A DNA stretch of 64,000 bases from NCBI GenBank assembly GCA_001485605.1, contig FAON01000001.1:1-64000 (forward strand). Reading direction: 5' to 3'. This stretch comes from Candidatus Kryptobacter tengchongensis. GTDB lineage: Bacteria; Bacteroidota; Ignavibacteria; Kryptoniales; Kryptoniaceae. The position numbers and the translations under genes were made by a program. The notes below the pieces were generated by a model. The model ran no database searches and had not been told where the DNA came from. It was given only the letters and a program-made list of their open reading frames with translations. Below, piece after piece: positions 35,891 to 41,198 of the stretch (the stretch's first letter is position 1; every line of letters starts with the position of its first letter).

Positions 35891-37435
35891 ATGCCGAGGG
35901 TCAGCAAAACATCTAAGATAACTGCATCTGTTCGGAAGGAGATAGAAAGGATAATTGATGAACGGGTAAAGCCAGTATATGTTACCAAAGATGATTTTAA
36001 CGAGTTAAAGAGCATAGTTAAACAGCTCGGTGAGGCACAGATAAATCTTACAATTCGTGTCGCTGAACTTGCAGAAGCGCAAAGAAAAGTAGAGGAACAA
36101 TTAAATATACTAACTCAAAGGGTTGATGCTTTAGCGGAAGCGCAGAATATTTTGGCTCAGAGGATAGATGTTTTGGCGGAGGCACAAAGTATTCTAACTC
36201 AAAGGGTAGATGCTTTAGCAGAAGCACAGAGGAGGACGGAGGAGAGATTGGATGCGTTTGAGAAAGCGACGGAGGAGAACTTTAAGAGAGTATGGGAGAG
36301 CATAAATCAACTTACGATTAGAGTAGATCAACTTACAGAGGCACAAAGGAGGACGGAGGAGAGGTTGAATGCGTTTGAGAAGGCAACGGAGGAGAACTTT
36401 AAGAGAGTATGGGAGAGCATAAATCAACTTACAGAGGCGCAGAGGAGGACGGAGGAGAGGTTGAATGCATTTGAGAAGGCGACGGAGGAGAACTTTAAGA
36501 GAGTATGGGAGAGCATAAATCAACTTACAGAGGCACAGAGGAGGACGGAGGAGAGGTTGAATGCGTTTGAGAAGGCAACAGAGGAGAACTTTAAGAGAGT
36601 GTGGGAGAGCATAAATCAGCTTACAGAGGCACAAAGGAGGACAGAGGAGAGATTAAATGCGTTTGAGAAAGCGACAGAGGAGAACTTTAAGAGGGTATGG
36701 GAGAGCATAAATCAACTTACAGAGGCGCAAAGAAAGACGGAGGAGAGGTTGAATGCGTTTGAGAAAGCGACAGAGGAGAACTTTAAGAGGGTATGGGAGA
36801 GCATAAATCAACTTACGGAGGCACAAAGGAGAACGGAGGAGAGACTGAATCAGCTTACAATTAGAGTGGATCAGCTTGCGGAGGCGCAGAGGAGGACGGA
36901 GGAGAGGTTGGATGCGTTTGAGAAGGCAACAGAAGAGAACTTTAGGAGGGTATGGGAGAGCATAAATCAACTTACGGTCAGAGTTGACCAGCTTACAGAC
37001 GAAGTTAGGGCGCTTACAAGAGAGGTAAGGGATATTAGGAGAAGGTTTGGAGAGCTATCAGATTCCGTTGGTTTTGGGCTCGAAGATAAAGCCTTTAAAT
37101 CTTTGCCAAAGCTTCTTAAAAGGGATTACGATATTGAAGTCAAAAAGATATTGATAAGAAGATTTATCAAAGATAAATACGGCAAGGATATTGAAGTCAA
37201 TATATTTGCCCAGGCGGAAAGAAATGGGCAGGAAATAACTGTAATAGGTGAGTGTAAAAGCCAGCTTTCAAAAAATGATGTTGAGAATTTTGAAGAGTAT
37301 CGGCTGAAAAGATTTGAAGGGGTTTATCCAAATATATTACCAATTTTGATCACATACATGGAAAGTGAACCTGGAGTTGAAGAATTCGTTAGAAGCAAAG
37401 GAATTGGGATTTACTTTTCGTATGAACTTGATTGA
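35891..37435 (+). CDS. Long coiled-coil protein with repeats and PD-(D/E)XK-like C-terminal domain (DUF3782-type)
   Basis: This 514-residue protein has a coiled coil with a 14-residue repeat (LAEAQNILAQRIDV), then seven copies of a 32-residue unit (LTEAQRRTEERLNAFEKATE..., ending RVWESINQ), some separated by a QLTIRVD heptad. The C-terminal 110 residues are globular and carry D433/E435 and the E454-C-K456 motif (VIGECKS), as in PD-(D/E)XK nuclease-fold proteins. Such proteins are frequent in thermophilic bacteria and archaea; their role is not established, although nuclease-like activity on DNA is suggested. There are no membrane segments. The 32-residue period equals three heptads plus a hendecad. 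No good Shine-Dalgarno sequence is visible. Confidence 0.88.
   Translation: MPRVSKTSKITASVRKEIERIIDERVKPVYVTKDDFNELKSIVKQLGEAQINLTIRVAELAEAQRKVEEQLNILTQRVDALAEAQNILAQRIDVLAEAQSILTQRVDALAEAQRRTEERLDAFEKATEENFKRVWESINQLTIRVDQLTEAQRRTEERLNAFEKATEENFKRVWESINQLTEAQRRTEERLNAFEKATEENFKRVWESINQLTEAQRRTEERLNAFEKATEENFKRVWESINQLTEAQRRTEERLNAFEKATEENFKRVWESINQLTEAQRKTEERLNAFEKATEENFKRVWESINQLTEAQRRTEERLNQLTIRVDQLAEAQRRTEERLDAFEKATEENFRRVWESINQLTVRVDQLTDEVRALTREVRDIRRRFGELSDSVGFGLEDKAFKSLPKLLKRDYDIEVKKILIRRFIKDKYGKDIEVNIFAQAERNGQEITVIGECKSQLSKNDVENFEEYRLKRFEGVYPNILPILITYMESEPGVEEFVRSKGIGIYFSYELD
36332..36811 (+). repeat. Five tandem 96-bp units inside the coiled-coil gene
   Basis: Units begin at 36332, 36428, 36524, 36620 and 36716, each exactly 96 bp, with few substitutions, mostly synonymous (for example gaggcgcag versus gaggcacag). 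Related diverged copies start at 36215 and after 36812. The identity at DNA level shows recent duplication, and copy number may vary. The units encode protein, so this is not a CRISPR array. Confidence 0.95.
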
Positions 37436-37439
37436 ATTT

Positions 37440-37833
37440 TTTATTCATTGACCTTCCTTGAATTTTTATAAAGTTATCATTTTGAAATTTTCTCAAAACT
37501 CGTGAAATTGTTTCGGGTCTTGTTCCAAGATATGTTGCAGGCATAACCTGTGAAAGATTTAATCTAATTTCGTTTTTCCCAAGTTTTTATATTCGCTGTG
37601 AAGATACTTGGCAAGACGCTTAAGAACATCTTTTTAAGGTTAAATTTCCGCTCCGTTGATTTGAACTTATCAATCTTTTCGCAAGACCATGGGGCATCTT
37701 TATACAAATTTAAAGTTGAATTCTTAATTGCCTGCGCATTTGCAGTGTAAGTTTCCTTTTTCCTTATCTTTCAAAGATATACGAAATTTAAAACATCAAT
37801 TTCTTAAAAAACAGATTGAAATGGGGGAATTTT
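37440..37833 (-). pseudogene. Decayed Crp/Fnr-family regulator
   Basis: The gap after NnrS holds remnants of a Crp/Fnr regulator read on the minus strand. In order they are an N-terminal KIPPFQSVF-stop-EIDVLNFVYL piece, a beta-roll end (YTANAQAIKNSTLNL), a dimer helix (DVLKRLAKYLHSEYKNLG) and the helix-turn-helix (RLNLSQ...LGTRPETISRVLRKF). The pieces lie in different frames, with in-frame stops and a deletion of much of the cyclic-nucleotide-type barrel. Frame changes fall at A5 runs, so sequencing error could explain some, but not the deletion and stops. It would be the last gene of the NO operon. I see no other feature in this 395-base gap. Confidence 0.82.
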
Positions 37834-39223
37834 ACCTCATTTTGGAGGTTTTTCGGAGGTTTATGAAAAGAAAAATAAGTGATGTGATCGCAACAAAGCC
37901 AGAAATCCCAAAAAGATATAACATAATCTGTGTTAAAATTTGAGCCGAACTGGATAAATAAAAAGGAACAAGCATCGGGATAACCCTTGAAAAAACGGCG
38001 ATGTTTCCTAAAATAAATGTTATAAAAACAATTTTAGTGTTTGCAATTTTACTTTTGTGCATAAACCCAGGCAACATTCTCTGCGCCATTCCAAGTATTA
38101 AAAGGGTGATGAAACCAGCAAGGAAAGAATGTCTTGTGGGATCATCGCCATAGTGAACAGGTAGATCAAACAATAAGAGCACCCTTGCAAGTGCGTCAAG
38201 AAATAATCCGATCATAAGCCATATATAAGCCGAATAAATTAAAAACTCAAATCTTCCAAACTCACCATAATCCGAATAACCCTTTCTTGGTTTTTTCTCT
38301 TGGTTAACTTCATTTTCAAATCCATCTCTTCTCCAAAATGGTGATTTTGAAAGTGCCTCATTAGGTAGAAAAATTCTTTGAATTATTCCAGATGATAAAA
38401 GCAACAAAACGACAGTTAAATCAACAAGTAGAGCGGTGAAATTAAAGTCAATGGGTAAAGTTATCATTTGAGTTGGCATGGAGATGAACTCGTGAAATAG
38501 AACAATTACGAGATAAAGATAGCCGATATATTTTAGCGATTTTGAGGGTGGCTTCAAATGAATGTAGAGCGGGAAATTTAAAATTGAAAAAGCAAATGAA
38601 ATTGGGAAAAGCACAAAACTTACAAAAAGATTTACGCTCCATTTATTCCACATTATCCACTCATATCTATCAAGAAAAATTGAGGAAACCTGAACAAGCG
38701 AATAAATTATCCAGCCCAAGATGAATAATATGAAAAATGGTTTTACTATTTCAAAGCCCCTCTTTTTAAAATCAGGCGCTTTTAAGAATGTTTTGGTAAG
38801 AACAGAAACATAAAAGATTAAGCCAGCAAACTCAATAATATTTCCAATGTTTGCAAGATGTTTAAAAATAACTTTGATTTTCTCATCGTCAAAGTAGGGA
38901 CTCCAGAACTCAAAATTTGTCCTGATCAAAAGTCCAGTGACAGTGAAATAAAGAATAAATTTCAATGTGCCTCTTCTCTCAATTGGGACACTTGCCATTC
39001 TCGGCAGGAAATGTAAACTAACCCCAATTATAAAAAGCCCTGTCCATCCGATAAGTTGGAGATGTCCGTGCGTTTGAATCCATATATCAAGTGCCCTTGG
39101 CAAACCCATATTGAATCCAATCTGCATTGCAATATGAGCGCCGATCATAAACCCACCCAATATGGCAATTCCAAGTGACCACCAAATAAAGCCACTTTCA
39201 AATTCTTGATGTATTTGCTTCAC
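37832..39223 (-). CDS. nnrS: NnrS family protein
   Basis: This 463-residue protein with about twelve membrane helices contains the NnrS core THGHLQLIGWTGLFIIGVSLHFLPRM (shortened here to its GHLQLIGW and LHFLPRM parts). NnrS is a heme- and copper-containing membrane protein that protects against nitric oxide stress and is commonly controlled by NO-responsive Crp/Fnr regulators. A second histidine-rich segment (DPTRHSFLAGF) is also typical. It lies 13 bp after a related membrane gene and two genes after the hemerythrin gene, with a regulator pseudogene directly behind it. Confidence 0.88.
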   Translation of the reverse strand: MKQIHQEFESGFIWWSLGIAILGGFMIGAHIAMQIGFNMGLPRALDIWIQTHGHLQLIGWTGLFIIGVSLHFLPRMASVPIERRGTLKFILYFTVTGLLIRTNFEFWSPYFDDEKIKVIFKHLANIGNIIEFAGLIFYVSVLTKTFLKAPDFKKRGFEIVKPFFILFILGWIIYSLVQVSSIFLDRYEWIMWNKWSVNLFVSFVLFPISFAFSILNFPLYIHLKPPSKSLKYIGYLYLVIVLFHEFISMPTQMITLPIDFNFTALLVDLTVVLLLLSSGIIQRIFLPNEALSKSPFWRRDGFENEVNQEKKPRKGYSDYGEFGRFEFLIYSAYIWLMIGLFLDALARVLLLFDLPVHYGDDPTRHSFLAGFITLLILGMAQRMLPGFMHKSKIANTKIVFITFILGNIAVFSRVIPMLVPFYLSSSAQILTQIMLYLFGISGFVAITSLIFLFINLRKTSKMR

Positions 39224-39236
39224 ATCAAAGTGATTT

Positions 39237-40346
39237 TTATTTGAAACTTCTCAAGACACTTAAAATATAAAGTATGAAAAAAATGAAATGTAAAGTTCCA
39301 GTTATCCATCCAGCCCAACTCCATAACTCAACAGAGACCGTGACGAATAAATCTGTAAAAACTCGTACAATTGTCATTAGTTGAAAAAGATAGAACAAGA
39401 TCCTTGAAGGAATCCTTTTGGGCATCTTTGCAAGCGTTGAACTCAAAACAATTGGCGCATGGGATAAGATCATCGTAAATATAAATCCCAATCCAATTGA
39501 ATGAAAAACAACATCTTTTGCAACTGCTTGAATTTGGTTCCATAAGATTATAGAGATACTCGCAAATATAAGCCAGAGGTATGCAACTATTAAAGTTTCT
39601 CTTGCAAACTTATGCAACGCCCCTTGTGCGAGAGCAAAACCTTTAACATAAACAATTATCACAGAGTCGTTATAAATCAATCCGATGGAGACAAAAAGTA
39701 GGATGATCCCAACAATTTGAACTGGTATAAGATAAAACAGTGAATTAATAATTGAGATGCCAAGATAAACTATTAAACTTAAATAAAGAACTTTTGCTGA
39801 TGTTCTGTTGAAACCAAGTGTTAATTCTATTCTTTCAGCTCCTATTACAGCAATTGCAAATGAAAATCCGGCAAGTGCGGATTCAATGCTTCCTGCAAGT
39901 CCGTCATGTGAGAGTAGGGCAATTGAAAGAGCAACATAGGAGAGGAATTCAATAAGTGGATTCAAAAGATGTTTAAATGTTTTGTAGGCAATGAATCTGT
40001 GGATTCCCCAGCCAAGAAGTGCTACGATGTTAAGAATTTTGAACAGAGGAAAATCAATGTGAATTAAAGCGGAGGATATTCCCCAGATGTATGGTGTCCA
40101 GATAAGCCATTTGACGGGCAAAGCAAACATTCGCTCAAAAATTATCAGTGTCCCAAGAAACGCACCAATCATAAGGTTTCCGTGTGGGGGCAAAAATTCA
40201 GGTATTGAGGGTAAAATAAAACCACGGGTCAATGCAATTCTCCAAATTCCTATCAGGATAGCAAAAACAAAAGAAAAAATCCCAATTAGCATTGACCCTT
40301 TTAAAATTCGTTGAATTCTTTTTGAATTATTTGAAGCAAAACTCAT
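39237..40346 (-). CDS. Polytopic membrane protein, NnrS-neighbour type
   Basis: This 369-residue, about ten-helix protein is of unassigned function. The block PPHGNLMIGAFLGTLIIFERM (residues 53-73 region, read as HGNLMIGAFLG) echoes the THGHLQLIGW block of NnrS, and a second histidine segment (HSIGLGFIFTMILSHAPI) lies near residue 283, so it may be a distant relative that also binds heme. It starts four bases after the hemerythrin gene ends and is followed by nnrS, so the three are surely cotranscribed. A role in NO or oxygen handling is inferred from this context. Confidence 0.8.
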   Translation of the reverse strand: MSFASNNSKRIQRILKGSMLIGIFSFVFAILIGIWRIALTRGFILPSIPEFLPPHGNLMIGAFLGTLIIFERMFALPVKWLIWTPYIWGISSALIHIDFPLFKILNIVALLGWGIHRFIAYKTFKHLLNPLIEFLSYVALSIALLSHDGLAGSIESALAGFSFAIAVIGAERIELTLGFNRTSAKVLYLSLIVYLGISIINSLFYLIPVQIVGIILLFVSIGLIYNDSVIIVYVKGFALAQGALHKFARETLIVAYLWLIFASISIILWNQIQAVAKDVVFHSIGLGFIFTMILSHAPIVLSSTLAKMPKRIPSRILFYLFQLMTIVRVFTDLFVTVSVELWSWAGWITGTLHFIFFILYILSVLRSFK

Positions 40347-40350
40347 AAGG

Positions 40351-41133
40351 TTAACTTTTCTTTGTTATTTTGACACTCCATATAGTTGGACCTGTAATTG
40401 TATATTCCCATTCAAATTTTATTTCTTTTTCAGCTTGGAATTGATAATACAAAGGTTTAGGGTCATGGTCGTTCACAAGGATGAGGCTTTCGGATGGATT
40501 TAATTTGTTAAATTCTTCAAGTATAAAATCATGTCTTTGAACTGGTGGGATATCCCGCACATCAAGTATTTTTGAATTTCCGAAAAATTCACTTTTTATT
40601 TCGTCAAGTATCCTGTGAAATTCTTCATGTTTCCCCTTGCCAATCTCATTCAATTCAAATTCCTCAAACTTCTCAAATAATTCTTTTTGTTTTTGAAGTG
40701 AAAGATGCATATCCGCTATGACAAATAAAACATTATTTTCTTTATAAATGTGTTGTTCAAGGAGATTGACATAGCCTTTTATTGCTTCCGATATCTTCAT
40801 AAGTGCTGAATTGTTATGAGTCGTTTTATAATTTTGTGCCGATTCCCTGATTATTTTAATGTAGTTCCGACCGAGTTCATGTTCAGTTAACATTACCTCA
40901 ATTGGTCCCCCTTCCCTTGGGATACCAGCTTTTTCAAGTTCTGGGAAAAGCATATTCTCTTCTTTTGCGTGATGGCATCTGTCGGCAAAAACCGAGAAAA
41001 ACTCGGTTAATTTTTCAATTTTTTCAATATCTGCTATGTTTTCTTTTTCAATTTTGCTTCTGCATATATCAAGCAAAAACAAAGCCAAGCGAATTGCCCG
41101 ATGTTCTTTTTTAAGTTGCTCTGTTGCTGTCAT
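40351..41133 (-). CDS. Hemerythrin HHE domain protein with C-terminal DUF2249
   Basis: The 260-residue cytoplasmic protein has an N-terminal hemerythrin-type four-helix bundle. Its iron ligands are expected from KKEHRAIR, HHAKEENMLF, TEHELGRNY and LEQHIYKENNVLF (the H...HxxxE...H...HxxxE pattern). Residues about 190-258 (LDVRDIPPVQRH...LILVNDHDPKPLYYQF) form a DUF2249 domain. This pairing is common in denitrifiers and NO-stress operons; the diiron site may bind or repair after NO. It is first in the operon and has a perfect Fnr/Dnr-type box 51 bp upstream of its start. No Shine-Dalgarno sequence is evident. Confidence 0.92.
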   Translation of the reverse strand: MTATEQLKKEHRAIRLALFLLDICRSKIEKENIADIEKIEKLTEFFSVFADRCHHAKEENMLFPELEKAGIPREGGPIEVMLTEHELGRNYIKIIRESAQNYKTTHNNSALMKISEAIKGYVNLLEQHIYKENNVLFVIADMHLSLQKQKELFEKFEEFELNEIGKGKHEEFHRILDEIKSEFFGNSKILDVRDIPPVQRHDFILEEFNKLNPSESLILVNDHDPKPLYYQFQAEKEIKFEWEYTITGPTIWSVKITKKS

Positions 41134-41155
41134 GATGAAAATTTCTTTTTGTTTA

Positions 41156-41161
41156 AATTTA
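41156..41161 (-). promoter_or_regulatory. -10 element of the hemerythrin-nnrS operon
   Basis: On the minus strand this reads TAAATT, beginning 23 bases after the Fnr/Dnr-type box. A class II activated promoter (box centred at -41.5) would place the -10 hexamer 22 bases after the box. Confidence 0.5.
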
Positions 41162-41184
41162 AAAAAATCGCTGTTCGGGAAACA

Positions 41185-41198
41185 TTGATTTAAATCAA
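41185..41198. promoter_or_regulatory. Fnr/Dnr-type operator
   Basis: TTGAT-TTAA-ATCAA is a perfect, fully symmetric match to the Fnr/Dnr/NnrR consensus TTGAT-N4-ATCAA. It sits between the divergent hemerythrin operon and the S46 peptidase gene, at the class II activation position for the hemerythrin promoter. The linked regulator gene is a pseudogene, so a trans-acting paralogue would have to use it. Confidence 0.82.

Follow-up and report, generated by a model that had tools for sequence, protein, structure and literature searches.

A putative nitric oxide (NO) defence operon of the hot-spring lineage Kryptonia (PMC4737851) has lost the Crp/Fnr regulator gene at its end and has retained the Fnr/Dnr-type operator in front of its first gene; after this loss the operon is very probably controlled by a different regulator of the cell. 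The operon lies in the 64,000-nucleotide stretch analysed here (the window), which is part of a 2.68-Mb Kryptonia genome (G000; 16 contigs, 98.7% complete). The comparison set comprised seven genomes of the genus, G000 to G006, among them 'Ca. Kryptonium thompsonii' JGI-4 (G001) and 'Ca. Chrysopegis kryptomonas' JGI-23 (G002); G002 and G005 are 78% and 71% complete, respectively. The features of the locus, in the order of transcription, are:

41185..41198, minus strand: Fnr/Dnr-type palindrome TTGATTTAAATCAA, 65 bp upstream of the operon ATG
40351..41133, minus strand: gene 1, hemerythrin HHE and DUF2249 protein, 260 aa (Pfam PF01814, 9.3e-21; PF10006, 2.5e-23)
39237..40346, minus strand: gene 2, polytopic membrane protein, 369 aa (AlphaFold/structural match)
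37832..39223, minus strand: gene 3, NnrS-like polytopic membrane protein, 463 aa (PF05940, 23.7 bits, E 3.1e-5)
37440..37790, minus strand: gene 4, Crp/Fnr (DNR-like) pseudogene (tblastn, PF13545, nucleotide alignment)

A tblastn search with the intact G001 protein revealed Crp/Fnr homology 3′ of gene 3, split among three reading frames and interrupted by in-frame stops (E 1e-25). Nucleotide alignment with the G001 and G006 genes showed that the 5′ third of gene 4 and the spacer before it are lost, and that the remainder carries an internal deletion of about 50 nt and indels of 2, 1 and 1 nt. The in-frame stops, frame changes and internal deletion described in the initial annotation are thus confirmed, and gene 4 of G000 is a true pseudogene that provides no functional regulator. 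In its C-terminal part the recognition helix PETISR remains readable, and PF13545 matches at 35.4 bits over model positions 15-57 of 70. The best PDB match of the intact orthologues is Pseudomonas aeruginosa DNR (3dkw; 7.6e-28, residues 7-223), followed, as the next different solved protein, by NtcA at 9e-17. These orthologues contain one or two cysteines, none of them N-terminal, and no FNR-type cysteine cluster. The helices SETISR (G001) and PETISR (G006 and the pseudogene), set beside PETFSR in DNR, fit the pattern xExxSR with a residue other than Arg at CRP position 180. Judged by its intact orthologues, the lost regulator was probably a DNR-type Crp/Fnr protein, and by the same likeness it may have responded to NO. 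On the other side of the pseudogene, a convergent gene (window 35891-37435, plus strand) encodes at least four repeats of 32 residues (INQLTEAQRRTEERLNAFEKATEENFKRVWES); the length of its protein in relatives varies (514, 449 and 269 aa), which suggests a change in repeat number.

Intact copies of the fourth gene exist in relatives, contrary to the possibility, raised beforehand, that no regulator had ever stood here: gene 4 directly follows gene 3 in G001, at the same chromosomal site as in G000 by synteny, and in G006, where the operon occupies a different site. The two intact copies are 68% identical. In G003 the operon lies at the site used in G001, and gene 4 is reduced to a scar of about 110 bp in which the first codons are fused to the last. 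G002 carries the operon at a different site and lacks gene 4. The NnrS-like gene was not found in G004 or in the 71% complete G005, from which the operon is probably missing, and a related bin (L040) contains genes 1-3 with neither regulator nor box. In an rpoB tree, G001 (intact) and G003 (lost) are sisters with 100/100 support and G000 falls outside; this makes the loss in G003 independent of that in G000 and gives at least two losses, in line with the non-nested lesions of the two genes. In G002 and G006, tRNA genes immediately precede the operon, which occupies unrelated sites in the two genomes (L021:5624-6600, L023:6178-7181); the box lies close behind the tRNA genes, and this arrangement suggests that operon and promoter move as one unit.

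The perfect TTGAT-N4-ATCAA palindrome reported in the initial annotation was located at 41185-41198, and its position is conserved in all five genus loci (65-70 bp ahead of the ATG) whatever the state of the regulator. The boxes read TTGATTTAAATCAA in G000, TTGACTTAAGTCAA in G001, TTGACTCAAGTCAA in G003, TTGACTTAAATCAA in G002 and CTGACCTAAGTCAA in G006, and the operon promoters are poorly conserved outside them. By simulation, the chance of a YTGAY-N4-RTCAA site within 150 bp of such sequence is P ~0.003. The genus consensus, TTGAC-TTAA-GTCAA, is HcpR1/DNR-like, and the TTGAT form of G000 is a variant that departs from it at two symmetric positions (TTGAT...ATCAA vs TTGAC...GTCAA). A genome-wide count of TTGAT-N4-ATCAA in G000, a check proposed with the initial annotation, returned 13 copies: the operon box is the only one outside coding frames, and the 12 further copies all lie inside them. 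Three genomes without a local regulator (G000, G002 and G003) retain the box, and regulator loss with operator retention is thereby shown.

The three structural genes are all intact in G000. Gene 1 is 60-75% identical to its counterparts in four genus relatives. It shares the hemerythrin HHE domain and an NO-linked gene context with the iron-cluster repair proteins RIC/YtfE/DnrN, but it is fused to DUF2249 and scores far below the equivalog models of that group (38 bits, cut-off 204.7). Pfam and NCBIfam searches gave no match for gene 2, and its AlphaFold model (pLDDT 67) weakly resembles subunit I of cbb3 oxidase (TMq 0.60, E 0.03). Gene 3 was assigned to no Pfam family by hmmscan. When the NnrS profile was run against the genome, its match fell exactly on gene 3, below the curated PF05940 cut-off of 28 and restricted to model positions 252-361. 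The AlphaFold model of gene 3 (pLDDT 71.7) retrieved heme-copper oxidases and NO reductase in Foldseek (TMq 0.58-0.66, best E 1.6e-4), at 10-14% identity. We consider the label NnrS-like reasonable because the model resembles heme-copper oxidases and NnrS itself is described as a heme-copper membrane protein (PMC1274295); gene 3 would be a distant, sub-threshold relative. Both the NnrS family and gene 3 are polytopic membrane proteins of NO-type operons, and a heme-copper-oxidase-like fold is a probable further likeness; the differences are the score under the cut-off and the length (463 aa vs 371 model positions). A profile comparison of genes 2 and 3 gave no significant homology; judged by the models, a heme-copper-oxidase/NnrS fold is probable for both. 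The minus-strand order proposed initially is confirmed, and the name nnrS for the third gene is reduced to a sub-threshold PF05940 match. The operon probably protects against nitric oxide, by NO removal or by repair of the damage.

The TTGAC-N4-RTCAA form occurs in 13 copies in G000, two of them intergenic, at a sigma factor gene and at a ferredoxin gene. The latter copy, TTGACAAAAGTCAA (G000:C7:156323-156336), lies 81 bp before a 95-aa ferredoxin gene. Its sequence is invariant in 7/7 genus genomes, whereas its flanks vary, and its distance to this gene is 79-82 bp throughout; it is present also in genomes without the local regulator or the operon. The ferredoxin promoter is a probable second Fnr/Dnr-type promoter, and the presence of its box in all seven genomes therefore indicates that the genus reads TTGAC-N4-GTCAA generally, beyond gene 4. 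The other intergenic copy, TTGATACAAGTCAA, precedes the gene for the major sigma factor by 32 bp (L058:1537-1582, G000:C7). A genome search with the relaxed motif TGAYYYRRRTCA gave 10 matches, comprising the operon box, seven sites inside ORFs, and two others at C14:78509 and C1:12636 (near rpoB). The C14:78509 site (GTGATTTGAATCAC), 66 bp before an ORF, was rejected as a further target as it is not a TTGAY box.

Kryptonia are thermophiles with nitrous oxide reductase and neighbours of N2O-producing Thermus; they carry nosZ, and other denitrification steps are reported missing (PMC4737851). G000 also contains nosZ. The nos operon (G000:C10:184000-198000) was rejected as a target, no box having been found there. 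It is headed by an Rrf2-family regulator gene (PF02082, 4e-35), and N2O reduction is probably under separate control.

The search for other Crp/Fnr genes suggested with the initial annotation yielded a close paralogue of gene 4. HTH_Crp_2 and Crp profile searches of G000 identified two intact Crp/Fnr genes, which we denote clade A (contig C14) and clade B (contig C12, L026:4960-5646). The clade B protein (228 aa) has the FNR/DNR-type recognition motif IETLSR, its best PDB match is DNR (9e-25), and it is 55-59% identical to gene 4; both are 29-30% identical to clade A. The G001 and G006 copies of gene 4 separate as a pair from clade B with weak support. Clade B is present in 6/7 genus genomes, the exception being the 78% complete G002, in which neither clade A nor clade B was found though the box is retained. 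A published code of specificity (PMC1274295) links Arg at CRP position 180 to a TGTGA site, and Ser or Pro at this position, with Glu181 kept, to TTGAC (HcpR1). Clade A, with the motif RETVSR, is therefore expected to bind a CRP-type TGTGA site, and this helix together with its 30% identity disfavours it as a surrogate. Clade B holds Ile, neither Ser nor Pro, at the specificity position, and its gene neighbours are carbohydrate and beta-propeller genes, with no NO genes among them. On sequence grounds, clade B is the best candidate surrogate for the lost regulator. In addition, a 157-aa ORF at G000:C8:178790-178918 has a partial Crp-type HTH match, and similar ORFs occur in relatives.

We favour, with some reserve, a model in which the DNR-like gene 4 has decayed and the operator is kept under selection by clade B, which would now be the sole controller of the operon. 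The NO-type defence operon would once have had a DNR-like Crp/Fnr regulator of its own, encoded by gene 4, which then decayed in G000 and, independently, in the sister lineage of G001 (G003). Clade B would bind the same TTGAY-N4-RTCAA site and, like DNR in Pseudomonas, act as an activator, here of the operon, the signal being NO produced by neighbours such as Thermus. It would very probably control the ferredoxin gene too. Within this model, the binding, the activation, NO as the signal and the role of the genes in NO removal or damage repair are inferences. Counting against control by clade B are its Ile helix, its neighbourhood, the box in G002, the state of L040 and the box-less nos operon. 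A further step, in which loss of a Ser/Pro-type regulator was followed by re-tuning of the operator from TTGAC to TTGAT on both half-sites toward the Ile-type paralogue, is conceivable and rather unlikely.

Alternatively, the box may always have belonged to clade B, or been shared, with gene 4 an accessory that came and went without consequence; this fits the conservation of the box independent of gene 4, the ferredoxin box in all genomes, even where gene 4 or the operon is missing, and the occurrence of clade B in six of the seven genomes, the seventh being incomplete. We hold it possible but doubtful, as gene 4 is co-directional with the operon and adjoins it at unrelated sites in two genomes, an arrangement that usually marks a dedicated regulator, and as gene 4 encodes a recognition helix of the kind suited to this box. 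The reading of the box as a relic awaiting decay, with the operon constitutive or off since the regulator was lost, draws on the two departures of the G000 box from the genus consensus and on the L040 locus, which lost or never had box and regulator. Yet the palindrome in G000 is perfect beside a heavily decayed pseudogene, two other regulator-less genomes also keep the box, the two changes are symmetric and yield another bona fide Fnr/DNR box, and the three structural genes are intact; we judge decay in progress improbable.

The left half of the box resembles TTGACA, and TTGAC/TTGAT could be merely the −35 hexamer of a sigma-70 promoter. This is very improbable, since both palindrome halves are conserved, no promoter-like match was found at the operon box, and the ferredoxin box is invariant over its full 14 bases between variable flanks. 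It is barely conceivable that an assembly or sequencing error breaks an intact regulator on paper. Although the indels lie close to homopolymers, the gene has lost its spacer and roughly one third of its length, and a further ~50 nt are deleted; lesions this large are therefore not base-calling slips at A5 runs, and a second genome (G003) has a different, larger deletion.

The observation is well supported by comparison, and the locus is a case of ordinary regulatory evolution of a known kind. Literature searches for comparable published rewiring returned nothing close. The genus offers a natural experiment in which the same box stands with a local regulator that is intact, decaying, nearly erased or absent, beside a single plausible surrogate. 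What is special is the constant operator over this series of regulator states; the symmetric change from TTGAC to TTGAT in G000 may be a second such point. The analysis would extend DNR/HcpR-type NO regulation to Kryptonia and defines a two-promoter regulon (operon and ferredoxin) as a candidate for testing. In the DNR and HcpR1 regulons (Rodionov et al. 2005, PMC1274295) the boxes are of the same type (DNR, TTGAT-N4-ATCAA; HcpR1, TTGAC-N4-GTCAA), the targets likewise include nnrS, hemerythrin-like and ferredoxin genes, the regulator often lies beside its target, and the FNR-type cysteine cluster is absent. Unlike those regulons, Kryptonia has repeatedly lost the adjacent regulator while the box stays, and its nos operon starts with an Rrf2 gene and has no box. 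The genome of Acidithiobacillus ferrooxidans similarly carries a pair of closely related DNR-type paralogues, and a box-preceded operon lies near each of them (PMC1274295); in Kryptonia, by contrast, one member of the pair is in decay and its operon would be left to the other.
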